Shown: piece after piece, positions 36,245 to 57,780 of the stretch
Layout of the letters: every line of letters starts with the position of its first letter
Numbering within the stretch: the stretch's first letter is position 1
Assembly: GCA_903918755.1 (NCBI GenBank)
Contig: CAIXFN010000083.1
Span: forward strand, 1-64,000
Direction of reading: 5' to 3'
DNA from: an uncultured Pedosphaera sp.
GTDB taxonomy: Bacteria; Verrucomicrobiota; Verrucomicrobiia; Limisphaerales; Pedosphaeraceae
DNA length: 64,000 nucleotides
The notes under the pieces: generated by a model
Databases searched by the model: none
The model's input: only the letters and a program-made list of their open reading frames with translations
Told to the model about the DNA's origin: nothing
Program-made: the position numbers and the translations under genes

Positions 36245-39235
36245 CTATTGCGCAGAATTGGAGCTCCTATAATACGTTCCAAATGCTCCTGCGCCAAGCA
36301 GCGCTCCGTTTGTGCCCGCACTTGATGGGACGGCAATCGATACCGCCAGCGAATTGTTCGTGCTCCATATGGGAGCAACCGCGATTGCTGCATAATCCAA
36401 TATTGAGGTTGCCGCTGTGGTTTTCAGAAAGAGTATTCCTCCCGCGAAGTTTGTTCGGACCAGACGGGCATCGATGCCCCAAGCGCTTGATGCGGTTACG
36501 ATTTGATCTGAGATGGTACGCACCACACGACCACCGAGACCAACCTTGATCGTCGTTACCGCCGGAGCATTGCTTGCCCAACCTTGAAAGCTAAATTCGA
36601 TAACGTCTCCGTCGTTAACCATCAAGTTTCCTGGAATTCCAGCAACATTTGTCCACCAAATTGTTTCGGTGCTGCTCACGTTGCTATGAGTGGCATAATC
36701 ACCCCAAATTCGACGGATTGGCGAGTTCGTCAGGGCGGCTCCGTCCAGCCCGCGCAGAGCCCCGCCCGCCACGATATTTGACGCATAAACTGTTCCACTA
36801 GGTTGAGAAGGTGCCCACACCACTGAATTTCCATTGTAAGCAAGGACACTTCCGTTGGATGCTCCGGCTGTTGCAAGAGATGTAATTGGGAGCCCGGTTA
36901 GGCCAGGAGCTGAAACTGGGCCTAAAAGCTGCAGCGTTCCGGCCCTGTTTGTTATTCCATGCTCCAAACTGAGCGAACCGTCATTTCGAATAATAAACGT
37001 GTTATACGGAGCTGACAAGCTTACCGTCATAATGGGCTTGTTACTAATACTGCTGAGCGTCCATCCGTAATCGACGCCAGCTATCGCGTCAAGAACCGAT
37101 TGCATTGCTGAATGTGTTCCATTAGCAAAAATCAATCGGCCACTATTGGCGGAGGTTCCAAAGAATCCGGCAATGACAATTGAGCCATCATTGCCAACCG
37201 ACCCCGCCCAATTAGCCCCCGAATTATCAGGATACCAAATGCTATTTGGGAAGAGCTCGAGTTGCGAATTTGTCACTCCCATTGGACCATCGTAGCCAAC
37301 CATATCAGCAACAATTGCATAAGTTCCATCACTGGCCACATCCACGATCTGATATTGTCCAATTCCCGTATTGTTCGTAATCTCTAAATAATTCCCAATA
37401 TTGGTTTTTGAAAGCAATGGTCCTGATGTCAGATAAATGGCAGAATCTCCATTTGTCGCTGTATAATGCCTTGAGTCCCAAACAACATTAGTAGCCGCGA
37501 AAACTTGCGTATTGTAATTTGTTCCTGGACCCCATGTAATGGGATTCGTTAGCGAACCCCCGCTGCTTCTCACGACATTATTAGCAAAGTCATTTGTGGC
37601 CGACGACGATGAGAGGACTGATCCTGCGTCCACGGGGACAATTAACCCCATGAGTTTGGCTAAAGTTGCGGCCCATAGCGGCGCGCCAATCTCAGGCGTG
37701 GGATGGGGACCATTAACCTGCAGGACACCCGAAGCCTCCATGGCATCATAGCTTGGGAACTGCGCAAACAAATCAAGATAAATATATCCAAGGGCCGCGT
37801 GCTCGAGCGCAATATTTCGCTCAATGGTATTCTGTTGAACCGAAGTATCGGCTGGCCCGGGAAAGGTGTTCGGTGGCGTTCCCACGACAAATACGGCCGT
37901 GTTGGTTCCCCCCGCCAATTGCGAATAGCCCAAAATGGTCACCAATAGATTGGAGAGGGTCACATCGTCCTCCTCGGTGTAATCCTTGGCATGCCAAATC
38001 GCAAAATCGGGATTAATGGCCTTGAATAAGGTTGCCATGCAATTGGTGCCCGGACCGTTTATGGTTGAAACCAGAGAACTTCCTGACCGAGCGTACGGGA
38101 TGGGGAGAAATCCGCGCTTCGTATTGTCGATGAATTCCCCTCCGAGAACGATATTGGTACCGCTGGAACTGGTGATCAAGAAAGCGTTGTTGGTTGACCA
38201 GGCGCAGGGCCAACTCGCGAACGCCACATTGGTTCCGTCGGGATTATTGCCATTAATTACAAATGTTTCGGAGCCGATCACGCTATTCGTATGCAATAAA
38301 GTGATGGTGCCCCCCTTCGGCCATTGCATATAATAGACTCCGACTTGATTGACGGGAACGGAAGACCCGCGCGCCGTCAGGTTCTGGCTGGTTTTAACCG
38401 CATTCGGCCCATCACTGCTATAGACCACCGCGTCTTCATTGCCGCAAAAAAAGTGTGGATCCTCCGGGCGGCTTTGATTCCAGCAATTGGGATTGCCATA
38501 GGAAAAATCAAAAGAATTTAGACTCACCCCAACATCGCCATAGAGGCCGCGTAATTTTTGCCCCAGAAAAAAGCCCGCACTGTAAAGCGCGGCATTATCC
38601 AGATCACTCATTGAATCACCCAGAAACAAGCCCCGCACGGGAGCGTTACCGAAAAGCAGCTTTTGCAGGATCGCTCCTCCGCCGGAAGCGGCCCATTGCG
38701 CTTGCAAGGGCATTCCAGCAATTTGGCTGGCATTGAGGTTGGACAAGGCGTTCCCGTTACCGGCAAAAATCCCACTCAGATTCACTGCGGTGGCCCCGTT
38801 GGTAAGCGTACCCGGCGGAAGCTGGGCCAGAGATATAGGCCCCAGCAAATTCTTGGCACTATTCGCCAAGCCGGAGTATGGCACCGAAGTTAACGACTGC
38901 CTTGGCGCCAAGGTAGTAAAACCATTTCCATTGCTGGTTTGGGTCGCCAACTCAAGCCAACCACCATCGGTTATGAAAAAGCTTCCAAAATCCACTGAGG
39001 TCGTAAAAATCCCGTTCGTCACGGGGACCGTCAAATTTGTCACGGGACCGGCTAGAATCGAACCGGCATTCTCGGCGTTCCATACGGCAAACCTGATGTC
39101 ATAATTCCCATTGGCCCCGAGAGTGCCCACCCGCAACACTCCTTGGTATGTAAAGGCGGTTGGCTGCCCCGGAACTTTATAAGCTAAAAAGCCAATACCA
39201 AATAGCAGCAAGAATTTCAGAACTGATAATCTCAT
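36245..39235 (-). CDS. Exported SGNH-hydrolase / tail-fibre mosaic protein, 996 residues
   Basis: A signal peptide (MRLSVLKFLLLFGIGFLAYK) is followed by an FTYQGVL domain common in verrucomicrobial surface proteins (about 27-120), an SGNH/GDSL esterase domain beginning GLFLGDSMSD (Ser near 208, likely His in NGPHPTPE), then modules also present in the late fibre-like proteins: a WYPDN...VGNDGS segment matching the 55049 protein and a C-terminus (TETIWWTNVAGIPGNL, ending GTYYRSSNSAQ) matching the 53216 protein. A GGAAAG site precedes ATG. With its own terminator and opposite strand it behaves like a moron: a surface esterase or an alternative fibre. Confidence 0.75.
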   Translation of the reverse strand: MRLSVLKFLLLFGIGFLAYKVPGQPTAFTYQGVLRVGTLGANGNYDIRFAVWNAENAGSILAGPVTNLTVPVTNGIFTTSVDFGSFFITDGGWLELATQTSNGNGFTTLAPRQSLTSVPYSGLANSAKNLLGPISLAQLPPGTLTNGATAVNLSGIFAGNGNALSNLNASQIAGMPLQAQWAASGGGAILQKLLFGNAPVRGLFLGDSMSDLDNAALYSAGFFLGQKLRGLYGDVGVSLNSFDFSYGNPNCWNQSRPEDPHFFCGNEDAVVYSSDGPNAVKTSQNLTARGSSVPVNQVGVYYMQWPKGGTITLLHTNSVIGSETFVINGNNPDGTNVAFASWPCAWSTNNAFLITSSSGTNIVLGGEFIDNTKRGFLPIPYARSGSSLVSTINGPGTNCMATLFKAINPDFAIWHAKDYTEEDDVTLSNLLVTILGYSQLAGGTNTAVFVVGTPPNTFPGPADTSVQQNTIERNIALEHAALGYIYLDLFAQFPSYDAMEASGVLQVNGPHPTPEIGAPLWAATLAKLMGLIVPVDAGSVLSSSSATNDFANNVVRSSGGSLTNPITWGPGTNYNTQVFAATNVVWDSRHYTATNGDSAIYLTSGPLLSKTNIGNYLEITNNTGIGQYQIVDVASDGTYAIVADMVGYDGPMGVTNSQLELFPNSIWYPDNSGANWAGSVGNDGSIVIAGFFGTSANSGRLIFANGTHSAMQSVLDAIAGVDYGWTLSSISNKPIMTVSLSAPYNTFIIRNDGSLSLEHGITNRAGTLQLLGPVSAPGLTGLPITSLATAGASNGSVLAYNGNSVVWAPSQPSGTVYASNIVAGGALRGLDGAALTNSPIRRIWGDYATHSNVSSTETIWWTNVAGIPGNLMVNDGDVIEFSFQGWASNAPAVTTIKVGLGGRVVRTISDQIVTASSAWGIDARLVRTNFAGGILFLKTTAATSILDYAAIAVAPIWSTNNSLAVSIAVPSSAGTNGALLGAGAFGTYYRSSNSAQ

Positions 39236-39544: not shown

Positions 39545-40180
39545 TTAGGCTAGGCTGGCGTCCATGACGGACTGGACATCCAGGAGGGCGGCGCGGACAT
39601 TGCCGCCGCAGCCGACTGCGATTTCGTTGGGGAGGTTGCGGGCGACTTTCCAGCGGGAGAGGAAGCGGGCCAGGTCCTCCGTGACCGGGGCATCCACCTT
39701 GAACTGCTGCAAACGTGTTTGGAAGCGTTCGGCGAGCGCCCGGAGGTCAAGGTTGCTGGTCCCGATGAATGCCGTGAAGCTGGGCATCTGGTCCAGGTAG
39801 GTTAGTAGCAGGTCCTGGGCGGCGGGCGGGGTGGCGTCCAACTCGTTCACGATCTTGACTGACCAGCGGGAGAGCAGGGGGATATACCGCTCGGATTCCT
39901 GCCATTGGCGAATCACTTCCAGGTTCACATTGCGCCCGTTCGTGGATTCGATCTGGACGGCTTGTTCCGTCAGGGACCGGGCGAAGAATTCCGCCAGCCG
40001 GGTCTTGCCCACACCGGGCGGGCCGTAGAGCAGAAGCTTGGCGGGGTTGCCGTCCGGTTTGATCCGGGCGGATTTGACGGCGAGGATGCGGGCGACGGTA
40101 TTGGCCGGGCCGATGAATTCATCTGGACTTTTGGGGATGTAAAGTTCAGGATGCTGCTGCGTTTCTGTTTTGCGTTTCAT
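39545..40180 (-). CDS. AAA+ ATPase, clamp-loader/RuvB-like, last gene of reversed cassette
   Basis: A 211-residue AAA ATPase from ATG 40180 (an ATG at 40237 would add 19 unlikely residues). It has PDEFIGPANTVARIL, Walker A YGPPGVGKTR, a Walker B-like VKIVNELDAT in which the usual DE is NE, and GTSN as sensor 1. The small lid domain follows. The altered Walker B suggests slow or absent hydrolysis. Its partner may be the Ycf46-like ATPase of the same cassette or the replication proteins. Confidence 0.7.
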   Translation of the reverse strand: MKRKTETQQHPELYIPKSPDEFIGPANTVARILAVKSARIKPDGNPAKLLLYGPPGVGKTRLAEFFARSLTEQAVQIESTNGRNVNLEVIRQWQESERYIPLLSRWSVKIVNELDATPPAAQDLLLTYLDQMPSFTAFIGTSNLDLRALAERFQTRLQQFKVDAPVTEDLARFLSRWKVARNLPNEIAVGCGGNVRAALLDVQSVMDASLA

Positions 40181-40208
40181 AGGAATTGGTTCATATTCGT
40201 GAGGCGCG

Positions 40209-40235
40209 GCCCCCGCCGTTACTGGCGGCGGGGGC
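40209..40235 (-). repeat. Intergenic hairpin, TTACTGG-loop type
   Basis: GCCCCCGCC/GGCGGGGGC arms with loop GTTACTGGC, in the 68-nt gap between the AAA gene and the 104-residue gene. One of four hairpins in this cassette with TTACTGG (CCAGTAA in the transcript) in or near the loop. Confidence 0.7.
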
Positions 40236-40248
40236 AACGCGCAGGGGG

Positions 40249-40563
40249 TTACTTCTTGGCGACCGGGGCAGGGGTTTTGGGGGCCGAACCGACAACGTCA
40301 ATCCGTCCGGATGCGGGCTTGCCTTCCAGCGAGCGTTGCAGTTCAAGGACGCGGGTTAGCAGGGTCTTGACCTGTGCTTCCAGCGCGGCGATCCGGCCCG
40401 TGAGTTTCCCTTCGACGCACTCATCAGGGATTTCGTACTCGCCCCCGGCGAACAGGGCGTCCAGGGCGGCGACCAACTCGGCGCTTTTGGCGTTGACCGT
40501 TGCGGGGGTAACGGGGGTTGCGGTTTCGGTCTTGGGGGCTGCGGTATTTTTGTTTTTGGCCAT
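40249..40563 (-). CDS. Hypothetical coiled-coil protein
   Basis: A 104-residue protein with Lys/Ala/Pro-rich ends and a central coiled coil (GKLTGRIAALEAQVKTLLTR). The flexible ends resemble those of the 73-residue protein at 45087. Not recognised; position suggests an accessory of the AAA proteins. Confidence 0.6.
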   Translation of the reverse strand: MAKNKNTAAPKTETATPVTPATVNAKSAELVAALDALFAGGEYEIPDECVEGKLTGRIAALEAQVKTLLTRVLELQRSLEGKPASGRIDVVGSAPKTPAPVAKK

Positions 40564-40572
40564 AGTCTCTTT

Positions 40573-40605
40573 CTGCCGTCAACCCTTACTGGGGGCGGGC
40601 GGCAG
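40573..40605 (-). repeat. Intergenic hairpin containing CCCTTACTGGG
   Basis: Outer arms CTGCCG/CGGCAG enclose an inner CCC-TTACT-GGG stem. It lies between the 104-residue gene and the 50-residue gene and shares the TTACTGG element with the hairpins at 40209, 45345 and 45797. Confidence 0.55.
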
Positions 40606-40667
40606 ATTGGAAACCACGGGCACCGCCCGGGGGGATGGGACCACCGGGCGGGCGGGTGTGGGGATTT

Positions 40668-40820
40668 TCAGTCTCTCCCGATAAAGATGCCGTGCGAACG
40701 GAGCAAGGCATCCACGGAAACGGCGAGGGCCTCGATTGCGTCGCGCTCCTTCTGGTCAATGGTCGCGATCTTGGCGGCTTCCAACTGTTCGAGCGCCAGC
40801 ATTAGGTGATGGTTATTCAT
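40668..40820 (-). CDS. Small ORF of 50 residues downstream of the Ycf46-like gene
   Basis: Reading from ATG 40820 to TGA 40668 gives MNNHHLMLALEQLEAAKIAT and then a helical, moderately acidic chain with DQKERDAIEALAVSVDALL. It starts 3 nt after the AAA stop, keeps the cassette's tight spacing and has no overlapping alternative. No family recognised. Confidence 0.55.
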   Translation of the reverse strand: MNNHHLMLALEQLEAAKIATIDQKERDAIEALAVSVDALLRSHGIFIGRD

Positions 40821-40823
40821 GGC

Positions 40824-42320
40824 TCACTTCACGATCTTTCGGCTCGTTTCCTTTTTGGCCTCGGGGGCGCTGGCGGGCATCGCCCGGTTCTCCAGCCGCT
40901 TCCGGCGTCGTTCGATTGCCTCCGCCATCGTCTTACTCGTGGGAACGAATTTAGTGGCGGCGGTGAGGATGTCGCTGTCGCGGGGCTCCCGGACCTTGTC
41001 GTTAAATGCCAGGGTCATCGCCTTGGCCCATACCTGCTCAATCTGGCGACCACTGAAACCGTCCAGGAGCGCGGCCAGCTTGGTGGTGTCGAATTGCTTG
41101 GGCTTGCGGCCCCGCTTGGCAATGTGGATTTTCAGGATGGCTTCCCGCTCGGTCTGGTTGGGCAGGTCCACGCTCCAGACATCCAGCCGGTCAATCAGCG
41201 GGTCGGGCAGGCCATCAATGTCGTTGCACGTGAATATGTAGTAGATGCCTTCCGAGTTGAATTGCATGTCCTGCAAGATCGCCTTAATGACGCGATTGGT
41301 AACTCCGCTGTCGGTTTCGCCGGATGACTTACCCCCGCAGAACAGCCCTTCCACTTCGTCAATCCAGAGGATGCAGGGGGCCACCGCTTTGACCGTAGCG
41401 AACGCGGACCGCCAGTTCCCTTCCGACTGACCGACAAGGGACCCGAACAGCTTGCCCGCTTCTAACCGGATCAGGGGCAGCTTGAATATGTTTGCCGTTG
41501 CGGCGGCCGTCAGACTCTTGCCGGTGCCGGGCTGGCCGACTACCAGAGCGCCCCGGGGGGCGGCGAGGCCATACTCGCGGGCGGCGGCTGTAAACAGATT
41601 CCGCTTTTCGGCGAGGTCGGCTTTCAGGGTTTCGAGCCCGCCGATGTCATCCAGAGTGGTTTTGGATTCCACGATTTCGAGCAGCCCGTTTTTGCGGATC
41701 ACGTTGGCTTTCTCCCGGGCCACGATAGAGGCGACGATTTCCTTCGTTTCAACGATGGAGAGGGCGAAGGCGTTTTCCGCCTCGCTGCATGTGAGCCCGC
41801 GGGCGGCATCAATGAACGTGTCGGCGATGTCCTCCATGATCGGGACCTTGGCACTGGCGGCGATGCCGTCCATGACCTCCCGCAGTTCGTCCCGGCCCGG
41901 CAAGGCGAACTCAATCACGGTGATTTCTTTTTCCAGTTCCGGCGGGAGTTGCAGGCGGCAGCCCACCACGACCAGGACCCGGTTTGCCCCACGGGCAAGT
42001 TGCAATGACTCTTTGACCTTGCGAAAGGTAATCGGGTTGCGGTCCTCCAATATCTGATGGAAGTCCCGAGCAATGAGGATTGAACGCTCGGGCATCTTAT
42101 CGAATGCGGAGAGCATTGCGAACGGTTCTTGCGTGTCGGCAATCTGCCGGGGTTCGTCCTCGACGCTCACGATACCCTGGCAGATGGACCAGGCATGCAG
42201 GCCGAACTTGGTAGAGGCGGCGACGGCGGCGATTTCCTTTTCGACGCGGTTTTCTTCATGGGACACAATGAACAGACCGGCATAACCGGCGCGGACGTAA
42301 TGGGTGATTTGATTTCTCAT
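40824..42320 (-). CDS. Ycf46-like AAA+ ATPase
   Basis: A 498-residue protein. The N-terminal 200 residues form a degenerate ATPase-like domain without Walker A (GYAGLFIVSHEENRVEKEI), the C-terminal half a complete AAA domain: GQPGTGKSLTAAA, CILWIDEVEGLF, TCND as sensor 1 and DPLIDRLDV. This is the layout of Ycf46, an AAA family of cyanobacteria, plastids and phages, distinct from FtsH. The gene set with DUF1257 (Ycf35) and DUF2997 supports the call. It probably remodels a protein or nucleoprotein target; that target is unknown. Confidence 0.85.
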   Translation of the reverse strand: MRNQITHYVRAGYAGLFIVSHEENRVEKEIAAVAASTKFGLHAWSICQGIVSVEDEPRQIADTQEPFAMLSAFDKMPERSILIARDFHQILEDRNPITFRKVKESLQLARGANRVLVVVGCRLQLPPELEKEITVIEFALPGRDELREVMDGIAASAKVPIMEDIADTFIDAARGLTCSEAENAFALSIVETKEIVASIVAREKANVIRKNGLLEIVESKTTLDDIGGLETLKADLAEKRNLFTAAAREYGLAAPRGALVVGQPGTGKSLTAAATANIFKLPLIRLEAGKLFGSLVGQSEGNWRSAFATVKAVAPCILWIDEVEGLFCGGKSSGETDSGVTNRVIKAILQDMQFNSEGIYYIFTCNDIDGLPDPLIDRLDVWSVDLPNQTEREAILKIHIAKRGRKPKQFDTTKLAALLDGFSGRQIEQVWAKAMTLAFNDKVREPRDSDILTAATKFVPTSKTMAEAIERRRKRLENRAMPASAPEAKKETSRKIVK

Positions 42321-42361
42321 AAGTTTACAGAACTGGTTAAAGGACGTTAAGGGGACAAGGT

Positions 42362-42383
42362 GGCCGGGGTTGCCCGCCCGGCC
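42362..42383 (-). repeat. Intergenic hairpin upstream of the Ycf46-like gene
   Basis: GGCCGGG/CCCGGCC with an 8-nt loop in the 78-nt gap between the 100-residue gene and the AAA gene. It continues the pattern of a stable stem in most gaps of this cassette; this one lacks TTACTGG. Confidence 0.6.
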
Positions 42384-42398
42384 AGCGGGGTTGATTGG

Positions 42399-42701
42399 TT
42401 AGTTGAGTGAGGGTGAATCGCCATCCCCGCCGACAAAGGAGAGGCGTTGGTTGGTTGGTTTGGTGCCCTTGCGAATGGTATCAAAGAACGCAAAGGCAGC
42501 GGATTTGTCGGCACCCTCCAGCATGTAAAGGGTGTAGTGGCCGCGAATGTTGGAGCCGACAATCCAAACGCTGTCATTGTCCATCCCCATGATCATGTCA
42601 CACGATTGCAAGGGGGGCAGTGGTTTGAATAACTCTCCGATGCCCAGCGCGGCAATCGCTGTCCGGCATTCTTCTTGATCGGTGCAAATGTGAATGTTCA
42701 T
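42399..42701 (-). CDS. Hypothetical protein of AAA/DUF cassette
   Basis: A 100-residue soluble protein beginning MNIHICTDQEECRTAIAALG, with GDGDSPSLN at its end. Family not recognised. Start at 42701 overlaps the preceding stop (ATGA). Confidence 0.6.
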   Translation of the reverse strand: MNIHICTDQEECRTAIAALGIGELFKPLPPLQSCDMIMGMDNDSVWIVGSNIRGHYTLYMLEGADKSAAFAFFDTIRKGTKPTNQRLSFVGGDGDSPSLN

Positions 42702-42889
42702 TGCGGCTCCGTGATTGGTGCGTTTGACCACCAGGTGCTAGTCCAGTTGCGGAGCGGCACTTGGTCGGCAAACAGTTCGTTGAATTCGTCATTGGCGATC
42801 ATGCGGACTTGCACGATGCCCTTGAGGCTCCCGCTCCGCCACCAGTACCACCCGGGGGCGGTGGGGGCTTTGGTTGTCCATTTAATCAT
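42698..42889 (-). CDS. Hypothetical Trp-rich small protein
   Basis: A 63-residue protein with seven tryptophans (PTAPGWYWWRSGS; LRNWTSTWWSNAP), similar in style to small phage proteins of the DUF551 kind (PGWYW motif). It overlaps both neighbours by ATGA. Confidence 0.6.
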   Translation of the reverse strand: MIKWTTKAPTAPGWYWWRSGSLKGIVQVRMIANDEFNELFADQVPLRNWTSTWWSNAPITEPQ

Positions 42890-43134
42890 ACTTTGCCATT
42901 CAGTTGCTCGATCTCCCATTCAATGCACGCCGTCCGGGACCGATTCCAGTAACGAGGCATGTTTTCCGAACCAAGGGTGACTTCCCATAATTGGGACGTG
43001 TTGTTGAACTCGATTGTGCTGGCCCGCTTGATGGTGAGTTGCCCGAGGGATTCAAGGGGCAGGGCGTCCGTGTGCAGCGCCGTGATGGTGCCGTCCTCGT
43101 GGACTGTGAAAACGTGTGTGTGGTTGGTAACCAT
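42886..43134 (-). CDS. Hypothetical small protein
   Basis: An 82-residue protein starting MVTNHTHVFTVHEDGTITAL, a short beta-hairpin-like start reminiscent of its DUF2997 neighbour, ending with a conserved-looking CIEWEIEQL. Not recognised. It lies directly after the DUF2997 gene (1 nt). Confidence 0.6.
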   Translation of the reverse strand: MVTNHTHVFTVHEDGTITALHTDALPLESLGQLTIKRASTIEFNNTSQLWEVTLGSENMPRYWNRSRTACIEWEIEQLNGKV

Positions 43135-43135
43135 G

Positions 43136-43321
43136 TTAGTTTCCGGTTGAGAGGCGCGGTTTTTCTTCGGCGCGATACTCGGGTTTTTTCTTGGAGTTGG
43201 TTTTGACGCCCATCGCTTTTTCCAGCGCGGCGGTTGCGGCCTCGCAGGCTTTACCCTTAAAGCCCGTGGTTTCAATTTCGACTTCGCCGTTTTCGGCGAC
43301 GGTAACAATGATGGTTTTCAT
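43136..43321 (-). CDS. DUF2997 domain protein
   Basis: A 61-residue protein starting MKTIIVTVAENGEVEIETTG followed by FKGKACEAATAALEKAMG, the DUF2997 pattern (beta hairpin, then a helix after FKGKxC). In other genomes this family sits beside DUF1257/Ycf35, as here: the DUF1257 gene ends 4 nt upstream. Function unknown. The C-terminal 20 residues are an extra basic tail. Confidence 0.85.
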   Translation of the reverse strand: MKTIIVTVAENGEVEIETTGFKGKACEAATAALEKAMGVKTNSKKKPEYRAEEKPRLSTGN

Positions 43322-43325
43322 AAGC

Positions 43326-43745
43326 TTACATTCCGGTGACGTGAACCTGCATTTTGGCACCCTGGGCGACCCGCTTGCACATCCAGCCTTTTTTCCTGGC
43401 CTCGATCTCGGTTTTGCAAACGGCGTACCGTTGCATGAATCCTCCCATGCTGTTGGCGAGCGGATTGGTGGCGCAGCCGAACCGGGTGCGGTTGTATGGC
43501 TGGTTGCCTTCGTAAAGAAGCATGTCGTCGGCAACGACGGTATAGGTGCCGTCGGGCTGGAGGACCAAACCGACTTCCATCTTCGTGCCGTTCACGGTGA
43601 ACGTGTGGGTGCTGGGGACCGTTTGGTTACTGTAGTAATGGCACACGGTTTTGTTTTCGTTGAACACCATGCCAAACTCGGCCCCGGCGGCTTTAATGGC
43701 GGCGATGTCTTTCAGTGCGGTTTTAATAGTTGCGATGTGGGACAT
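43326..43745 (-). CDS. DUF1257 (Ycf35) family protein
   Basis: A 139-residue protein beginning MSHIATIKTALKDIAAIKAA, the typical start of DUF1257/Ycf35, followed by the beta-rich core (TKMEVGLVLQPDGTYTVVAD). The family is conserved in cyanobacteria and plastids and in some phages, next to DUF2997 and often near Ycf46-type AAA proteins. Biochemical role unknown. Start at 43745 fits the family; an ATG at 43784 lies in a non-conserved extension. Confidence 0.85.
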   Translation of the reverse strand: MSHIATIKTALKDIAAIKAAGAEFGMVFNENKTVCHYYSNQTVPSTHTFTVNGTKMEVGLVLQPDGTYTVVADDMLLYEGNQPYNRTRFGCATNPLANSMGGFMQRYAVCKTEIEARKKGWMCKRVAQGAKMQVHVTGM

Positions 43746-43788
43746 ATGTTTACGTTCTGCGGATTTGTTTACGGTTGGGGACAAAGGA

Positions 43789-44649
43789 TCAGGCGAAGCG
43801 GCGTTTGCCCACTTGGCCGAATTTGGCGATCAGGTCTTTGGCTTCCGCAGCAACTTGCTTGCGGACGTTCACGTCAGAGCGGAGGGTTTGCGGGTCCAGG
43901 TTGGCGAATCGCTCTTTGATCTGGTCGGCGGCGCGTTGCAGGTCGGCGGAGTTCGTCAGGTTTAGCTGGGGGACCAGGTCCAGGATTTCCGTCACGTTGC
44001 CAATGAGGCTATCGCGGAAAATGCCGTCCTTGCTGGATAGCTTTTCCGAGAGGGCTTGCACCGGGGTCATTAGCCGGTTCCAGATGTCCCGGACAGCGGC
44101 GTCGATCCGGGTGCGGTTGAGGGATTCGAGTTGCGCCCGCATTTCCTCGACGGCCTCCGAGGCCATGTCTTTCGTTAAGAAGTGCGAAGCCTTGGGGACC
44201 GGGGTGTATTCGATTGCAAAACCGAAGTTGCCCCGCATGATTTCCCAGTCGGGATAGAGGGAAGCGTCAAACGTCTTAGCGTGCATCAATTCCGCTTGGG
44301 CAACCCATTGGGGGTATTGATCCCCAAAGGCTTTGACGTGTTGGTTAAAAACCTGCGTGTGAGCGAACATGGAGTCCTTGTAAGAATCATGCCCCTTGAC
44401 TGGCAGCATACGGGAGCCGTCCTCCCATGGTAGCGTGAGGTCGTAATGACGGCGGCGCGCCTCGCCGCCCGCTTCCCGGATGGCCTTGAATGCTTCATCC
44501 GGAAATAAGTGTTTAACCCACTTGCCCGCGCCGACGCCCAGGGCTTTCTTGAGCCGGACTTCATCGGTGATGGCTTTGTCCTGCCGTGTGTTGGGGAATA
44601 TCCGCACGTTGAGGCGGACGAGTACTGCTTTGACTTCGGGTTCTGGCAT
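43789..44649 (-). CDS. DUF3150-like phage protein
   Basis: A 286-residue mostly helical protein that I recognise as DUF3150-like (VLVRLNVRIFPNTRQDKAITDE at the start; LPVKGHDSYKDSMFAHTQVF mid-chain; long helices to the end). In phages such proteins commonly accompany MoxR-type or related AAA ATPases, which fits the two ATPases of this cassette. It may be an adaptor or substrate. No membrane segment. Confidence 0.7.
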   Translation of the reverse strand: MPEPEVKAVLVRLNVRIFPNTRQDKAITDEVRLKKALGVGAGKWVKHLFPDEAFKAIREAGGEARRRHYDLTLPWEDGSRMLPVKGHDSYKDSMFAHTQVFNQHVKAFGDQYPQWVAQAELMHAKTFDASLYPDWEIMRGNFGFAIEYTPVPKASHFLTKDMASEAVEEMRAQLESLNRTRIDAAVRDIWNRLMTPVQALSEKLSSKDGIFRDSLIGNVTEILDLVPQLNLTNSADLQRAADQIKERFANLDPQTLRSDVNVRKQVAAEAKDLIAKFGQVGKRRFA

Positions 44650-44680
44650 ATTGGTTTATGGTTAATTGTTTACAGATTGT

Positions 44681-44703
44681 GCCCGGGGCGAACCGCCCCG
44701 GGC
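44681..44703 (-). repeat. Intergenic 9-bp perfect hairpin
   Basis: GCCCGGGGC/GCCCCGGGC with loop GAACC, in the 63-nt gap between the 114-residue gene and the DUF3150 gene. Very stable; no U-run, so more likely mRNA processing or protection than termination. Confidence 0.7.
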
Positions 44704-44712
44704 GGGGGATGG

Positions 44713-45057
44713 TTAAATGAGCCCGGGGTCCGGGCGTTCGCCTTTCGCTTGGGCTATGGCCTTGCGCCCTCTTTCAATGGCAGCCGATACCGCCGCCCCA
44801 ACCGGGTCCGGTCCGTGGTTATCCAGCATTTCGGCGGAGCGGTTCATGAGCCACTGGAGGGCGTCGAGTAGTTCTTGGGCGTTTGCGCACAACCGGGCAT
44901 CTACCCCCAGCAAGTGCATTTCGCTCGGGTGGGGCTTGATCGTGACGTTTACACGATCCTCCCGCCCCAGCCCGTTTTCAGCGAATACGCCGTCCCTGAC
45001 GTATCGGCTCGCTTCTTCAAAGTTTACAGTTACGTCCAAAATTGTCTTAATTTCCAT
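44713..45057 (-). CDS. Hypothetical protein of AAA/DUF cassette
   Basis: A 114-residue protein starting MEIKTILDVTVNFEEASRYV, with a beta-rich first half and helical second half (NAQELLDALQWLMNRSAEML). Not recognised. Confidence 0.6.
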   Translation of the reverse strand: MEIKTILDVTVNFEEASRYVRDGVFAENGLGREDRVNVTIKPHPSEMHLLGVDARLCANAQELLDALQWLMNRSAEMLDNHGPDPVGAAVSAAIERGRKAIAQAKGERPDPGLI

Positions 45058-45086
45058 AGTGTGCTTTTCGTTGGGTTGCGGTTTGT

Positions 45087-45308
45087 TTACTCGGCGCTGT
45101 CGGCGACGAATTGTTGAATGTCAGCGATGTGGGCCAGCATCAGGCGGGCCTTGGCGAGTCCAAAAGTGAATGGCCATTTGTCGCCCTCGCCCTTGGTCAG
45201 GCAGAGAGTGGGTTTGCCCTGGTATTCCCCCCGGACGGCTTTCGTGGCGGGTTTGACGGAGGCGGCGGTTTTGGTGGACTTGGGAGCGGTAGCTTTTGCG
45301 TTTTTCAT
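45087..45308 (-). CDS. Hypothetical small protein with basic N-terminus
   Basis: A 73-residue protein: a Lys/Ala/Thr-rich N-terminal 25 residues, then a compact part (GKPTLCLTKGEGDKWPFTFG, AKARLMLAHIADIQ). Similar small proteins occur in phage AAA cassettes, but I cannot name the family. Confidence 0.6.
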   Translation of the reverse strand: MKNAKATAPKSTKTAASVKPATKAVRGEYQGKPTLCLTKGEGDKWPFTFGLAKARLMLAHIADIQQFVADSAE

Positions 45309-45344
45309 AATGGAATTGGTTTAGGGACGTTGCGTGTTGCCTTG

Positions 45345-45407
45345 CTCGCCCTCCGTTGGTTACTGGCCGCGGGGGGGCGAGAGGGGAACACGCGCCTTGC
45401 GGCGCGT
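45345..45407 (-). repeat. Two intergenic hairpins, first with TTACTGG loop
   Basis: CTCGCCC/GGGCGAG (45345-45381) encloses GGTTACTGG; ACGCGCC-TTGC-GGCGCGT (45390-45407) is a second, perfect 7-bp stem. Both are in the 103-nt gap between the 48-residue and 73-residue genes. Confidence 0.65.
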
Positions 45408-45411
45408 GGGG

Positions 45412-45558
45412 TTACGACTTCTTGACGACTTCCTCAAAGACGGCCTTCTGGCGGCGGCATTCACTCCGCCAGTGTTTGATCGCTGCTTTCTTGCTGGGGG
45501 CGGTTATGATCGAGCCCCATGTGTGGCCCTTCTTGTAACAGGTTGCGTAGAATTTCAT
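45412..45558 (-). CDS. Small basic ORF of 48 residues
   Basis: ATG 45558 to TAA 45412 gives MKFYATCYKKGHTWGSIITA and a very basic C-terminal helix (KKAAIKHWRSECRRQKAVF). It occupies a slot between hairpins like the other cassette genes. No family recognised; probably nucleic-acid binding. Confidence 0.55.
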   Translation of the reverse strand: MKFYATCYKKGHTWGSIITAPSKKAAIKHWRSECRRQKAVFEEVVKKS

Positions 45559-45571
45559 ATTCGGGTAGCTG

Positions 45572-45787
45572 TTAGATTGTCGTGATGCTTACCGTGAACG
45601 TGTTCCCGACCTGCTTGATTGTTGTCCCGATGCCGTGATCCGCCAGTGCCATGGCAACTCCCCGAGCCTGGCCATTATCACTAGTGCGGTGCTTCCATTT
45701 TTTGGTGATGGGGCGGTCCGCGATGATGTCTTGCGCCCATTCAAAGAAATAAGCTGCCCGGATGTCGCGAGTGAGAATTGATTTCAT
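45572..45787 (-). CDS. Hypothetical small protein
   Basis: A 71-residue protein starting MKSILTRDIRAAYFFEWAQD and ending in a beta strand (IKQVGNTFTVSI). Not recognised. Confidence 0.6.
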   Translation of the reverse strand: MKSILTRDIRAAYFFEWAQDIIADRPITKKWKHRTSDNGQARGVAMALADHGIGTTIKQVGNTFTVSITTI

Positions 45788-45796
45788 GTTTCATTA

Positions 45797-45833
45797 CTCA
45801 CCCCCCGCTGGTTACTGGCCCTCGGGAGGTGAG
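45797..45833 (-). repeat. Intergenic hairpin with TTACTGG loop
   Basis: CTCACC/GGTGAG enclosing GGTTACTGGCC, upstream of the 71-residue gene. It closely resembles the hairpin at 45345 in arms, loop and the GAG-GGGAACACG-type sequence that follows. Confidence 0.65.
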
Positions 45834-45871
45834 AGGGAAACACGACCCGGACGCGACGGCCCGCGCTGGCG

Positions 45872-46060
45872 TCATTTGAACTTGCTTAGCCGGCCTCTGC
45901 ACTTCCGGGGGTTTTCCTCTCCCACGCACCAGGTTCCTACTTCCCGGAGGATCGCCCGCATGGGCCTCAGTCGCTGGTGGTGGGTGCCGGGGTTTATCGC
46001 TTTCGCTTTCTGCCCGGCGGTTGTTTTCGCTTTGGTGAGTGTCGGTTGCTGCGTTCGCAT
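45872..46060 (-). CDS. Possible small basic protein, first gene of reversed cassette
   Basis: A frame of 62 residues from ATG 46060: MRTQQPTLTKAKTTAGQKAK, then RAILREVGTWCVGEENPRKC and a basic end. It competes with another frame on the same strand (ATG 46076) of lower protein-like quality. The hairpin at 45797 follows it, as after other cassette genes. Weakly supported. Confidence 0.35.
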   Translation of the reverse strand: MRTQQPTLTKAKTTAGQKAKAINPGTHHQRLRPMRAILREVGTWCVGEENPRKCRGRLSKFK

Positions 46061-46448: not shown

Positions 46449-47198
46449 GTGAGTAAGACAATGAATGACACTGTGCAGACGTTTCCCCGGATTGTGTTTC
46501 CGGGGGTTGACAACTCCGAGCGGGTTTGCGAACGGATCGCAGAGACGACGGACACGGTGATCCTTTCCTTTTCCGCAGGGAAGGATTCGATTGCCGCGTG
46601 GCTGGCCATGCGGCCCTACTTCAAGCGCATCATCCCTTATTTCCTCTACATCGTCCCGGACCTGGAGTTTGTGGACACGGCGCTGGAGTACTACGAAGAT
46701 TTTTTCGAGACGCGCATATACCGGTTTCCCCATGCCTCATGGTTTCGCATGTTGCGCAACCTGACCTTTCAACCGCCGGAGCGGGTCAACATTATTGACT
46801 CATTCAACCTGGGCGAGCCCGACTATCAGGAAATCCGGGACCTCGTGTGCGGTACGGCAAAGGTCCCACTCGGGACATTTGACGCCAAGGGGACGCGGGC
46901 CGCGGACTCGATCATGAGGCGGACAAACTTTAAGCAACGGGGCGGCATCAACTGGAATCAGAAGTTTTTCTTCCCGGTGTGGGACTGGCGCAAGGCGGAA
47001 CTGGTTCACCGGTTGAAATCGTCCGGGGTCAAGATGCCCATCGACTATGAATTATTCGGGCGCTCGTTTGACGGAATCGACTTCCGGTTTTTGTATCCGA
47101 TCAAGCAGCACTTCCCGGATGACTATCAGAGAATTTTAGAATGGTTCCCCCTCGCGGAACTGGAAATCAAACGCTACGAATATGCCAAAGAAAACTAA
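46449..47198 (+). CDS. PAPS reductase-like PP-loop protein
   Basis: A 249-residue protein of the phosphoadenosine phosphosulfate reductase family. The PP-loop is SFSAGKDSIAAW near residue 38; the following LEFVDTALEYYEDFF and later KQRGGINWNQ, FPVWDWRKAELVHRL agree. Phage members are common but their reaction is unproven; sulfur transfer to nucleic acid or base modification has been proposed. It lacks the C-terminal ECGLH Cys of true reductases. Start GTG 46449 or ATG 46461; both lie in repeat copy 2, so binding there would affect its expression. It overlaps the next gene by 17 nt. Confidence 0.75.
   Translation: MSKTMNDTVQTFPRIVFPGVDNSERVCERIAETTDTVILSFSAGKDSIAAWLAMRPYFKRIIPYFLYIVPDLEFVDTALEYYEDFFETRIYRFPHASWFRMLRNLTFQPPERVNIIDSFNLGEPDYQEIRDLVCGTAKVPLGTFDAKGTRAADSIMRRTNFKQRGGINWNQKFFFPVWDWRKAELVHRLKSSGVKMPIDYELFGRSFDGIDFRFLYPIKQHFPDDYQRILEWFPLAELEIKRYEYAKEN
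46453..46476. promoter_or_regulatory. Operator-like repeat copy 2, over the PAPS reductase start
   Basis: 24 nt starting GTAAGACAATG, differing from copy 1 (46155) at two positions. It overlaps the first codons of the PAPS reductase-like gene. Direct orientation, 298 nt from copy 1. Confidence 0.55.
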
Positions 47199-47664
47199 AC
47201 GCCCCGAGCCGATCAGCGCGGAGCAATCGGAAATGGATGCCGCCATCGCTTCCCTGGGGAGCGGCGAAATGGAAATGCCGGACATGGACGCGGAACTCGC
47301 CCGCATGGACCGGGAAAACCCGTTGGATGCGGTGCCCGAGACGGATGATTCCGAACACGACACCAAACAGGTCGTGAGTGCCGCGCTGGCGGCGTTCAAG
47401 AATCAGGCGGCAAACGAGGCAAAGATTTTCCAGGACAACACCGATACGGAATATTGGTTCGCGGTGTGCTTCCAGAACCGGGACCAGAAGGAAGCTTTCC
47501 TTAAGGCGGTAAAGTGGGGAGCAGACGATAAATATCTCGACGGTCAGAAGGTGGCCAAGGCAATGGGCATTGCCCTTCCGGATGGGAAACGCAAGTTCAA
47601 CACGGGGGAGAAAAACAGGAGCATGACCGAAATCGGGATCATTCCGACGAAACCCAAGAAGTGA
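47182..47664 (+). CDS. Acidic phage protein, partner of the PAPS reductase-like gene
   Basis: A 160-residue protein: a basic start (MPKKTKRPE), an acidic disordered first half (MEMPDMDAELARMDRENPL), then a folded part with EYWFAVCFQNRDQKEAFLKA and GKRKFNTGEK. Not named, but the YWFAVCFQ..QKEAFL block is familiar from phage proteins next to PAPS reductase and ParB-like genes. Overlap of 17 nt suggests coupled translation. Confidence 0.6.
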   Translation: MPKKTKRPEPISAEQSEMDAAIASLGSGEMEMPDMDAELARMDRENPLDAVPETDDSEHDTKQVVSAALAAFKNQAANEAKIFQDNTDTEYWFAVCFQNRDQKEAFLKAVKWGADDKYLDGQKVAKAMGIALPDGKRKFNTGEKNRSMTEIGIIPTKPKK

Positions 47665-47871: not shown

Positions 47872-48534
47872 ATGCCCGAGGATAAACCAACGCCGCCAAA
47901 GCCGGTTGGCATCACCGCCGAACAGGCGGGCAAGGTGCTCGCCGGTGACCTGGCCAACATGGTCAAGAAGGTGGCCAATGGTCAGACCCTAAACAATTCC
48001 GAGCGGGGCATCCTAGAGGGGTTGTCGAGAAAGAAGGGGGCGGCGGGAGAGGGCGCGGGGGGCACTCCCGCGTTCGCCAAGAATCAAAGCCAACTGGCGG
48101 TGATCCTGGACGTGGCCCGCAAGACGATCCAGCGTTACAGCAAGCGCCCCGACGCCCCCGCCCCCCGCCCCAATGGAAGCCTCTCGGTGGCAGAGTGGAA
48201 AACCTACCTGCAAGCCCATGAGGTCCTGGATGCCGATGATGACATTGACGCAGGCCGCGAGAAGGCAAAGCAAATCCTGCTCCAGAACCAAAAGCTGGAA
48301 TTTCAACTGGCGGTGATGCGGGATGAATACGTTCCCGTGGAGCAAGTGCAGGCGGATGTTGCGGAAATGATCGCGACGGCCAAGATGGCGCTTTTGTCCG
48401 GCCCGGCCTCGCTGGCTCCGCAGGTCGTGGGGGAAACGGTGGTTGCGGCGGAAAAGATTTTGCGGGATTGGATTTATGGCGTGCTCTCGCGGCTGCACGC
48501 AGACCCGCTCAACCGAGGGGAGTCCCATGAGTAA
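47872..48534 (+). CDS. Terminase small subunit (Nu1-like)
   Basis: A 220-residue protein from ATG 47872, 8 nt after the terminator (TTG 47866 is less likely). A helix-turn-helix lies in KNQSQLAVILDVARKTIQRYSKR, followed by an acidic linker and a helical C-terminal region that would contact the large subunit. It recognises the packaging site. Overlaps the large-subunit gene by 8 nt. Confidence 0.75.
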   Translation: MPEDKPTPPKPVGITAEQAGKVLAGDLANMVKKVANGQTLNNSERGILEGLSRKKGAAGEGAGGTPAFAKNQSQLAVILDVARKTIQRYSKRPDAPAPRPNGSLSVAEWKTYLQAHEVLDADDDIDAGREKAKQILLQNQKLEFQLAVMRDEYVPVEQVQADVAEMIATAKMALLSGPASLAPQVVGETVVAAEKILRDWIYGVLSRLHADPLNRGESHE

Positions 48535-50353
48535 ACCTATTTCTGGAAGGATGGCGGCGTCCCCGGTGGCGGCGGCGGCTAGGGCGGCATGGCGTCCGCA
48601 GGATTTGCGGACCTCTTGGGAGTGGTGCGAGGGGCATATCGTGGTGGATAAAATGTCGCCGATGCCCGGGCCTTGGCGCGTGGCGAATTCGCCTTGGGTC
48701 AAGGAGTTGATGGAGTGCAAGGCGGACCGGGGCGTCACGTTCCTAGCGGTGCGGTGCAGTGCCCAATCTTCCAAAACGCAAACGGTGTTGAACCTCGTTT
48801 GCTATGACATCGCGGAGGACCCCGGCCCCTCGATGTACGTGCTGGCCAACAATGACGACGCGGCGGATTTTGTGCGGGACCGGTTCGAGCCCACGATGCG
48901 GTTTTGTAAACCCGTGGCGGACATGCTGGTCCGGCACGCCAAAAATGCGTTCAAGTTCCGGACCATGCCGCTCTACTTCGTGGGGGCGGGCTCCATGGGG
49001 AAATTGCAGGGCAAGCCGATGCGGCGGCTATACCTGGACGAGGCCCGCAACTACCCGGACGGCGCGTTGGAAACCGTCCTGAAACGTGTTCGGGCGTGGG
49101 GCGACATGGCGCAGGTCTTTTTGATCAGCACCCCCGGGATGAAGGATGATGCGATTGACCGGGCGTTCATGCAGGGGGACCAGCGGACGTACCACCTCGA
49201 TTGCCCTTGCTGCGGGCGGGTCCAGCGGCTGCACTGGGACCAACTGAAATGGGACACGAACGAAACGACGCGGCCCAATGGAGTTTACAATTTTGATGCG
49301 CTCGCGGAGACGATCCGCTACGAGTGCGAAAACCGGGAGTGCGGGCAGAAGTGGCGGGATGTGCCGATAGATCGGAAATGGATTTGCCGCAACGGGAAGT
49401 TTATCCGGCTGAATCCGGGAGCCCCCAAGCATCATGTTTCGTTCACCTGGTCGGCCCTCCTGCCGTGGTGGGTGAAGTGGCGCTCGCTCGTGGAGGAATT
49501 CATTTATGCGCGGGCGGCGGTGCGGGCCGGGGATGTGGCCCCGATGAAAACTTTCATCACGGAGTCGCTCGGGGAACCGTTTGAAGATCGGTTGGGCGTC
49601 ATTGAGGATTTCAAGTTTCTGGAGTTGCGAAAATCGCCTTACGAGTACGGGGAAGTCTGGCCCGAAGCGAAGCGCCGATTCATGGCGGCGGACAAGCAGG
49701 AGAAGGGGGGCGAGCATTACCCGTGGGTGATCCGGGAATTTGCTTTGGCCGGCAAGTCGCGCCTCGTGGCGCACGGCATCGCGATGACCCTGGAGGAATT
49801 GGAGCAAATCCGGAAGGACAACAATGTCGCGCCCGGCAATGCGATGATTGATTCCGGGTACGAGGCGCAGAAGGTTTATCGCTTCGCGGCGACGATGAAA
49901 TGGCGCGTGTTCAAGGGGGATAGCCAGCAGTTTTATTTGGTGAGCCGGATTGACCCGGCAAACCCGAACCTGACGGTGACGGTGCGGCAACTGTGGCGGA
50001 TAACCAAGGCCGTCGTTTACAATGAGCAGACCCGGCGGCGGGTGGGGGAGATTCCGCTGTACACGTTTTGCGATGACGCGACGAAGGACTTTTTGTTCGA
50101 GTTTCTCAACGGGCTGGTGGGGCAATGGACGGTGCCGGACCTCGTGGCCGCGGACTATCTCCGGCAGATCGCCAGCGAGCGGCGAGAGATGGAGGAGGAC
50201 AAGACGGGGCACGTTCATTACTTCTGGCGGCGGACTGGCCCGAACCACTTTCTGGACTGCGAAAAAATGATTCTGGTCGCGGCCATTATCACCAAGCTGA
50301 TCGCCTCCCCGGCGCAAGTGGTGAAGCGGGAACCCCGGAACTTGACGGGCTGA
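48527..50353 (+). CDS. Terminase large subunit, GpA (lambda) family
   Basis: A 608-residue packaging motor starting MSKPISGRMAASPVAAAARA. The ATPase part has the atypical GpA-type P-loop CSAQSSKTQT, then MRRLYLDEARNYPD (Walker B) and LISTPGMKDD. A zinc site (CPCCG ... CENRECGQ) follows, and the nuclease half includes MIDSGYEAQKVYRF. Together with the small subunit it cuts and packages DNA, probably at cos sites given lambda-type organisation. ATG at 48527 overlaps the small subunit. Confidence 0.92.
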   Translation: MSKPISGRMAASPVAAAARAAWRPQDLRTSWEWCEGHIVVDKMSPMPGPWRVANSPWVKELMECKADRGVTFLAVRCSAQSSKTQTVLNLVCYDIAEDPGPSMYVLANNDDAADFVRDRFEPTMRFCKPVADMLVRHAKNAFKFRTMPLYFVGAGSMGKLQGKPMRRLYLDEARNYPDGALETVLKRVRAWGDMAQVFLISTPGMKDDAIDRAFMQGDQRTYHLDCPCCGRVQRLHWDQLKWDTNETTRPNGVYNFDALAETIRYECENRECGQKWRDVPIDRKWICRNGKFIRLNPGAPKHHVSFTWSALLPWWVKWRSLVEEFIYARAAVRAGDVAPMKTFITESLGEPFEDRLGVIEDFKFLELRKSPYEYGEVWPEAKRRFMAADKQEKGGEHYPWVIREFALAGKSRLVAHGIAMTLEELEQIRKDNNVAPGNAMIDSGYEAQKVYRFAATMKWRVFKGDSQQFYLVSRIDPANPNLTVTVRQLWRITKAVVYNEQTRRRVGEIPLYTFCDDATKDFLFEFLNGLVGQWTVPDLVAADYLRQIASERREMEEDKTGHVHYFWRRTGPNHFLDCEKMILVAAIITKLIASPAQVVKREPRNLTG

Positions 50354-50383
50354 CGTTCTCTGACGTTCGCCCGAGGGTGAATG
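50351..50383 (+). repeat. TGACGTT-N7-GGGTGAA junction motif, copy 2
   Basis: TGACGTT occurs twice 10 nt apart (50351, 50361); the first TGA is the terminase stop. GGGTGAATG follows the second after 7 nt and gives the ATG of the next gene (50381). Confidence 0.65.
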
Positions 50384-50755
50384 GCGAACCATGAAAACTT
50401 GATCCGGGCGATGGGGCGGGCGGCGATAGCGGGAAGCCCCACCGATCCCGTCGCGGCATTGACCCTGATTATCACGGGGCATTACACGTCCACAGTGACA
50501 CAGGGGGGGACGCTCGTGAACTGCAATGAGGCCGGGGGCAACATTTCCTTCCAGGTGCCCAGCGGGATGGATGCGGGGGAGATCATGGCGCTCTGCGAGG
50601 AAGCCATCCAGTTTCTCACAACGGAGTGCAACCAGGGAGCGGATGGCAACTGGCGGATCAAACCGACGCGGCGGATCAAACGCCTGCGGGTGAGCTTCCG
50701 CAAGAAGAATTTCGGTGGATCGGCAAGGTCAGTCTTTCCGGGGGTGATGCAATGA
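50381..50755 (+). CDS. Small protein in the gpW (head-tail joining) position
   Basis: A 124-residue protein between large terminase and portal, where lambda has gpW. It contains ALTLIITGHYTSTVTQGG, a helix ALCEEAIQFLTTECN and a basic C-terminal region (RRIKRLRVSFRKKN). Clear similarity to gpW is not visible, so the role is from position. Overlaps the portal gene by 4 nt. Confidence 0.55.
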   Translation: MANHENLIRAMGRAAIAGSPTDPVAALTLIITGHYTSTVTQGGTLVNCNEAGGNISFQVPSGMDAGEIMALCEEAIQFLTTECNQGADGNWRIKPTRRIKRLRVSFRKKNFGGSARSVFPGVMQ

Positions 50756-55003: not shown

Positions 55004-55028
55004 GGCGAGTGGGGGGCGGCGGCAAAGC

Positions 55029-55051
55029 TGACGTTTCCAGCAGGGTGAATG
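55029..55051 (+). repeat. TGACGTT-N7-GGGTGAA junction motif, copy 3
   Basis: TGACGTT 55029-55035, then GGGTGAATG after 7 nt; the ATG (55049) starts the second fibre-like gene. Confidence 0.65.
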
Positions 55052-57211: not shown

Positions 57212-57226
57212 CGTTCCTCAAGGGTA
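57209..57226 (+). repeat. TGACGTT junction motif, copy 4 (degenerate)
   Basis: TGACGTT starts in the stop codon of the second fibre-like gene, followed after 6 nt by GGGTAG. One base shorter and less conserved than the other copies. Confidence 0.5.
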
Positions 57227-57262
57227 GCGGACAATCATAACTCAATAACCTAAAACGAATTT

Positions 57263-57739: not shown

Positions 57740-57780
57740 CTCACCTGACAGAAAATTGACGGTCAACAAAATACAAAAAT

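Follow-up and report, generated by a model that had tools for sequence, protein, structure and literature searches.

The window analysed here is a stretch of 64,000 nucleotides from an uncultured Pedosphaera sp. (Verrucomicrobiota) and represents the first 64 kilobases (kb) of a 113-kb contig (G000:C83). On its minus strand, from 46060 to 39545, 15 open reading frames (ORFs) were packed with gaps of 1 to approximately 104 bases or with overlaps. A preliminary interpretation made without database searches (the sequence-only reading) had described a reversed block of about 14 genes; the tight packing was confirmed, but the part that recurred in other genomes comprised only five genes, referred to here as the cassette. 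In order, these encoded a DUF3150 homologue of 286 amino acids (aa; 43789..44649), a DUF1257 (Ycf35) homologue (43326..43745, 139 aa, ATG at 43745), DUF2997 (43136..43321, 61 aa), a small protein of an unnamed family, g82 (42886..43134, 82 aa), and a Ycf46-like AAA+ ATPase (40824..42320, 498 aa). The phage setting noted earlier was borne out by structural genes for terminase, portal, head protease and major capsid at 48443-58824. Since host-type genes (ClpC-like, guanido kinase-like, dihydroorotate dehydrogenase and ATP-grasp) occupied the left part at 3-21 kb, phage genes (exonuclease VIII, endonuclease and primosome-like genes) were discernible from approximately 31 kb and a weak integrase match, below cut-off, was present at 73.3 kb of the contig, the element is likely a prophage of a Verrucomicrobiota bacterium. 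Promoter and terminator scans gave counts at the level of shuffled sequence (1 against a mean of 2.8 and 13 against 12.4, respectively).

Family membership was clearest for DUF2997 (PF11211), for which the window protein scored 54.6 bits (E 9.8e-15) against a Pfam cut-off of 24.1. The Gly23 and Cys26 residues of this family were invariant (71/71), and Cys26 was its single invariant cysteine. The DUF1257 (PF06868) protein alone reached 15.3 of the 22.2 bits required by the cut-off, and the DUF3150 (PF11348) protein alone gave no DUF3150 match in Pfam. With hhalign, an alignment of phage proteins was compared with a separate alignment of Verrucomicrobiota proteins. The DUF1257 proteins matched a group including an over-threshold member (L087, 37.0 bits) with 99.8% probability and E 1.8e-28, and the DUF3150 proteins matched a group including L083 (91.7 bits, over the cut-off) with 98.2% and E 6.3e-14. 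Hence, the family names given in the sequence-only reading held directly for DUF2997, whereas on profile comparison the other two window proteins are divergent homologues of the named families. In DUF1257, Asp73 (64/64), Ser2 (63/64) and His3 (61/64) were conserved, and the N-terminal Met-Ser-His was kept in the window protein. The g82 protein matched phrog_38408 (2e-7), and in an alignment of its own family Gly15, Gly31, Arg37 and Trp50 were invariant (55/55). We know of no function for Ycf35, which occurs in cyanobacteria and algal plastids, or for DUF2997, which occurs in cyanobacteria and sporadically elsewhere.

The AlphaFold2 model of the DUF3150 homologue (pLDDT 87.1, pTM 0.80) predicted an alpha/beta part and a C-terminal helical bundle; the DUF1257 model had a pLDDT of 82.2. 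Foldseek against the PDB returned nothing at E <= 0.001 for either predicted structure. VIA-align found helical-bundle matches for DUF3150 residues 184-284 (best Z 8.7, rmsd 3.0, 99 aligned); matches of this size are common among helical models. For DUF1257, the best match did not exceed Z 4.9 (rmsd 4.7, 64 aligned). The cassette ATPase contained a classic AAA domain of the PF00004 type in its C-terminal half (Pfam AAA, 4e-23), with Walker A (GQPGTGKS) at 262 and Walker B (ILWIDE) at 317. Residues 2-494 of its 498 matched phrog_8638 (3.1e-111), and residues 1-240 had no Pfam match. The protein is called Ycf46-like because it resembles, over its full length, AAA proteins from cyanobacterial plasmids (34% over 98%), one of which, on a Geminocystis plasmid, is encoded near DUF1257 and DUF2997 genes.

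The linkage of the five families was assessed in 40 DUF2997-anchored loci on genome contigs, with partners counted only where the contig left room. Two of these records were titled Proteobacteria and 38 Verrucomicrobia, Lentisphaerae or groups within them; the sample leans to near relatives because the query was a close alignment. DUF1257 lay just upstream of DUF2997 in 33/34 loci, DUF3150 within approximately 4 kb upstream in 23/28, g82 within 2.2 kb downstream in 27/29 and the AAA gene within 4.5 kb downstream in 17/19. The genes shared a single strand and followed the order seen in the window. The Pfam DUF2997 model was found at 16 places in 14 of 288 genomes of the phylum and in one of 14 control genomes (Synechococcus elongatus). 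At the 15 places other than the window's own (13 genomes; at least two of their contigs recur among the 40 loci), AAA was present in 12, DUF1257 and g82 in 10 each and DUF3150 in nine. Five of the 15 showed another arrangement, in which an unrelated-looking ORF stood between AAA and DUF2997. This ORF was rejected as DUF1257 (hhalign probability 0.3%), and the five loci (L079, L086 and L091-L093) were therefore counted as lacking that family.

Co-occurrence extended to viruses and plasmids. At least one partner accompanied the AAA gene in 15 of 24 AAA-anchored viral loci, some of them near-duplicates. In the phage collection, the AAA was present in 142 records, including all 17 with a DUF1257 match to a single query (two phages occur twice among the 17); on plasmids, all five records with a match to the same query also carried the AAA. 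The order of the window recurred in Verrucomicrobiota loci and in four viral loci (L003, L005, L050 and L051), while g82 preceded DUF1257 in three others (L001, L002 and L004) and the AAA gene came first on a Manganitrophus plasmid (L039) and in cultured phages. DUF1257 and DUF2997 were fused in one viral ORF (L006:7143-7745). In an AAA tree, read with a midpoint root and without considering support values, the proteins from full five-gene sets formed one cluster including the window's, and those of cultured phages with DUF1257, DUF2997 and g82 branched off separately and deeply. The linkage therefore seems to be old.

Because these families occur jointly in many genomes, the cassette is not a chance assembly. 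It is a real unit that looks old and is wider than phages. A neighbourhood unique to this genome was thereby rejected, as was a phage-only module, and the earlier claims that the neighbourhood is conserved and that the families occur outside photosynthetic organisms were upheld by the phages, plasmids and Verrucomicrobiota chromosomes carrying them. Among open-licence PMC papers, no title was found that concerns these genes in mobile elements. The Verrucomicrobiota copies were considered as possible prophages or conjugative elements. A GpA-type terminase, the only terminase family tested, had no match in seven of eight other genomes and lay in the eighth on a contig other than that of the cassette; two conjugation ATPase families, the only ones tried, had no match on the Verrucomicrobiota cassette contigs.

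Several further copies were observed. The host encodes a second Ycf46-like AAA (G000:C60:23197-24690, in L094; 39% to the window's). It is close to a Verrucomicrobiota group in which the AAA is paired with DUF2997 and an unnamed protein of approximately 160 aa. The Verrucomicrobia metagenome-assembled genome UWPOB_VERRUCO3 carried four cassette copies on four contigs (L107, L108, L109 and L120), some cut by contig ends. Chromosomal sets in two genomes (L145-L150; G254 and G066) were located near genes for RCC1-repeat and very large proteins.

In cultured phages, the set preceded replication genes. Rhizobium phage L338C carried the AAA gene, one other gene, DUF1257, DUF2997, g82, an O-like initiator (phrog_678, 4.6e-7), one other gene, DnaB, PolA and primase, and Rhizobium phage RHph_I4 had the same layout. 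In Pseudomonas phage SM1, DnaB, PolA and primase followed a few genes downstream of the AAA-DUF1257-DUF2997-g82 run, and the gene tested there gave no match. The run was also present in Aeromonas phage HJ05, where the O-like match after it was weak (5.8e-4) and the remaining genes are unannotated. One or two other genes separated AAA from DUF1257 in these runs.

For Verrucomicrobiota, 25 loci were chosen for context and neighbours were counted on the strand of the cassette. Besides AAA and DUF3150 (23 each), they contained a PD-(D/E)XK exonuclease (13), a WGR-bearing ATP-dependent DNA ligase (10), a sliding-clamp homologue (nine; below the Pfam cut-off but matching phrog_947 at 9.5e-30) and RadC (nine). 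A family of approximately 195 aa with an N-terminal YSKRLGLPGYSSHQF-like motif was encoded upstream of the exonuclease (L110, L130 and L080) and was present at 13 of the 25 loci. It had no Pfam or PHROG match at E 0.01 and could be an annealing or single-stranded DNA-binding protein. On the IncC plasmid p1643_10, DUF3150 followed ssb-bet-exo and preceded a VWA gene, and in pCAR1 it was flanked by a MoxR-type AAA gene on one side and a VWA gene on the other. The pCAR1 DUF3150 protein matched 1118 plasmid records, mostly at <60% identity and with the match covering part of the protein. PMC2642839 reports pCAR1 ORF100-103 (MoxR being ORF101 and VWA ORF103) as conserved in R478, Rts1, SXT and R391.

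The sequence-only reading had suggested takeover, anti-defence or replication. Because of the gene neighbourhoods in unrelated elements, this range can be narrowed in favour of DNA replication or recombination, and we tentatively hypothesize, at somewhat short of even confidence, that the cassette is an AAA+ remodeller that helps mobile DNA to replicate or recombine. The Ycf46-like ATPase would form a ring, to which DUF1257 and DUF2997, usually found together and once fused, may bring a client as a paired adaptor. DUF3150, with its predicted helical bundle and its place elsewhere beside other AAA and VWA genes, might be a scaffold or client-side subunit, and g82 a further adaptor. The client would most likely be a protein of a replication or recombination complex, such as the initiator with DnaB, the clamp, or an annealing and exonuclease complex. 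ClpX remodels MuA and lambda O, and the client could be remodelled in much the same way. In the window phage, a second AAA protein encoded at the end of the block (see below) might add an ATP-binding, perhaps weakly hydrolysing partner.

A number of observations weigh against this hypothesis. A neighbourhood is not a mechanism, and replication genes are common in any phage. No partner was seen at nine of the 24 AAA-anchored viral loci (near-duplicates included), DUF1257 was found with the single query in only 17 of the 142 AAA phage records, and mycobacteriophage Firecracker has the AAA with none of the partners found. DUF3150 was not found in four cultured-phage regions; in the phage collection, the L083 DUF3150 query retrieved no record and another DUF3150 query one. 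TPR and T2SSE genes were near four of the five AAA-ORF-DUF2997 loci, and a related AAA from a Treponema plasmid was encoded in a tail/baseplate locus. In the window itself, the exonuclease, endonuclease and primosome-like genes were on the opposite strand, at a distance of approximately 5-7 kb from the block's nearer end, and a sliding clamp was not found with a clamp profile at E 1, although the host clamp might be used. Moreover, cyanobacteria keep DUF1257 and DUF2997 beside a ferredoxin gene, with no mobile element, according to PMC4284462.

The ferredoxin gene leads to a different explanation, in which the AAA, DUF1257 and the cysteine-bearing DUF2997 insert, repair or protect an iron-sulfur (Fe-S) cluster or redox thiol of a partner enzyme, in cyanobacteria and mobile elements alike. 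Unlikely as we judge it, we regard the Fe-S or thiol theme as a serious rival. The invariant DUF2997 cysteine fits it, as do the annotated 4Fe-4S single-cluster proteins near the set on Paenarthrobacter and Paenibacillus plasmids, the 4Fe-4S protein preceding the related Treponema AAA (there without the small partners) and, on the IncC plasmid, YfaE at a distance of a few kb from DUF3150-VWA. Four cysteines are invariant (14/14) in the Verrucomicrobiota exonuclease, in the pattern C...CxxC..C, which we take to be that of Cas4/AddB-type nucleases. Some uracil-DNA glycosylase (UDG) families are Fe-S proteins, and the SM1 PolA carries an annotated UDG domain. The fed7 gene stands beside DUF2997-ycf35 in cyanobacteria, as PMC4284462 describes. 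However, no Fe-S-like cysteine cluster was present among ten proteins of the window's block, and the Rhizobium and Aeromonas phage regions viewed, in which most genes are hypothetical, had no annotated Fe-S protein close to the set.

It is less likely still that the cassette is an anti-defence or host-takeover device or, in chromosomes, a component of defence islands. Its accessory position and small partners would suit such a role, and the chromosomal sets of G066 and G254 lie within approximately 10 kb of NERD-protein-kinase genes or HATPase and DNA methylase genes, such as occur in defence islands. The PADLOC and NCBIfam matches were nevertheless confined to the AAA level (IetA, TRIP13, DolB and PDC-S01), the NCBIfam model 'anti-phage ATPase IteA' scored 85 bits against a cut-off of 510, no protease was found among the ten proteins scanned and the set directly precedes replication genes in cultured phages. 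A virion-assembly chaperone, as proposed for the MoxR-VWA pairs of jumbo phages in PMC7824862 and in keeping with the related AAA between Treponema tail genes and with DUF3150 adjoining AAA and VWA genes on plasmids, is very improbable, since the set lies outside the structural block of the window at 48-59 kb, adjoins replication genes in cultured phages and also occurs on plasmids and in genomes mostly without a GpA-type terminase match.

The replication or recombination remodeller might also be part of something broader. Bacteria may possess a third kind of AAA+ remodelling beside Clp/Hsp100 and MoxR-VWA, in which DUF1257-DUF2997 marks or delivers clients to a Ycf46-type ring with the DUF2997 cysteine as a handle; in mobile elements, the ring would act at the replisome or the complex for recombination, and a stripped-down version, its role taken for photosynthetic, would have been kept by cyanobacteria and plastids. 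We consider this extension rather doubtful. The linkage of DUF1257 and DUF2997 with an AAA+ protein in culturable phages means that their function can be tested in a simple system, by removing the genes. IncC and related conjugative plasmids commonly carry a distant relative of DUF3150, so a mechanism found for the cassette may bear on the way widespread plasmids handle DNA.

The last gene of the block (39545..40237, with a possible start at ATG 40180) encoded the second AAA protein, a clamp-loader-like ATPase domain of 230 aa termed NE-AAA. As proposed from the sequence, its Walker B motif read KIVNELD where DE is expected, and NE was present in 14/14 aligned sequences, the window's included and a few pairs being near-identical. 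It matched phrog_5846 (clamp loader, 8.8e-16) and an archaeal RFC small subunit (9e-7), with NCBIfam matches below their cut-offs. NE-AAA thus resembles phage clamp loaders (phrog_5846 and phrog_168) and the RFC small subunit in a common ATPase core and in two motifs, TR-x-Q and GNVR, which we presume to be SRC-like and sensor-2-like, respectively. It differs from clamp loaders in having NE instead of DE in Walker B and in being too short for a collar domain, and the clamp profile found no clamp in the window. NE-AAA co-occurred with the cassette in the window and in its IMG/VR sister phages L050 and L051, which retain the block including NE-AAA and two small ORFs, and it occurred without the cassette in the compared stretches, several of them short, of 11 other viral contigs. 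In single members of the latter, nearby genes matched N6-methylase, amidoligase, DNA ligase or another AAA; matches to ParB and amidotransferase were slightly below cut-off. On these comparisons, NE-AAA appears to be a separate phage gene and looks like an add-on outside the cassette core. Several NE-AAA phages (among L054 and L058-L062) shared neighbours matching amidoligase, a GATase-like family (just below cut-off), DNA ligase and another AAA, possibly a peptide-modification system.

The other ORFs of the block were small. Upstream of DUF3150, these were ORFs of 62 aa (45872..46060, opening the block with ATG 46060), 71 aa (45572..45787), 48 aa (45412..45558), 73 aa (45087..45308) and 114 aa (44713..45057), the last matching phrog_1273 (unknown function, 1.2e-6). 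A further 73-aa ORF followed g82 (42698..42919). Downstream of it, an ORF of approximately 100-110 aa (42399..42731, starting at GTG 42731 or ATG 42701) was kept in L050 and L051 (E 6e-17), as was a 104-aa ORF (40249..40563, E 2e-10). Apart from these two, the small ORFs, including one of 50 aa (40668..40820), had no relatives in the loci compared. Divergent from the block, a PAPS-reductase-like gene (46449-47198, plus strand) was followed by a small partner (47182-47664, plus strand), and both were kept in L051 (79% and 56% identity, respectively). Directly downstream of the block, a 996-aa protein (36245-39235, minus strand) contained stretches that we take to be SGNH/GDSL-like. It had no PHROG match at E 0.001 and is possibly a tail or surface protein.

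Among known systems, the IetAS pair of an AAA protein and a subtilisin-like protease shared with the cassette a weak, partial PADLOC match at the AAA level; PMC10954446 places the AAA antitoxin of SGI1 in the SpoVK/Ycf46/Vps4 group. Membership was rejected, as no such protease was found among the ten proteins scanned. The AAA-DUF3150-VWA regions of pCAR1 and IncC resemble the cassette in placing DUF3150 beside an AAA+ gene on mobile elements; they differ in the AAA (MoxR type in pCAR1), in the VWA gene and in having no DUF1257 or DUF2997 annotated in the regions viewed. Since the cassette AAA is of the PF00004 type and no VWA match was found in Pfam among the ten proteins scanned, membership in the MoxR-DUF3150-VWA group was likewise rejected. 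The cultured phages L338C/RHph_I4, SM1 and HJ05 have the same four families in one block and differ from the window in that the AAA comes first, belongs to a distant branch and is not accompanied by a detected DUF3150.

The nearest parallel outside mobile elements considered here is the cyanobacterial linked set, which in the account available from PMC4284462 consists of DUF2997, ycf35 (DUF1257) and fed7, without ycf46. The companionship of DUF1257 and DUF2997 in cyanobacteria, as stated in the sequence-only reading, therefore stood, but that of Ycf46 was not borne out by this account. Both sets hold two homologous small proteins together; the cassette additionally contains DUF3150, g82 and a linked AAA, lacks the ferredoxin gene and is set in mobile elements of non-photosynthetic organisms. 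Its linkage of these families with an AAA+ protein suggests that the function of Ycf35 and DUF2997 is not confined to photosynthesis.

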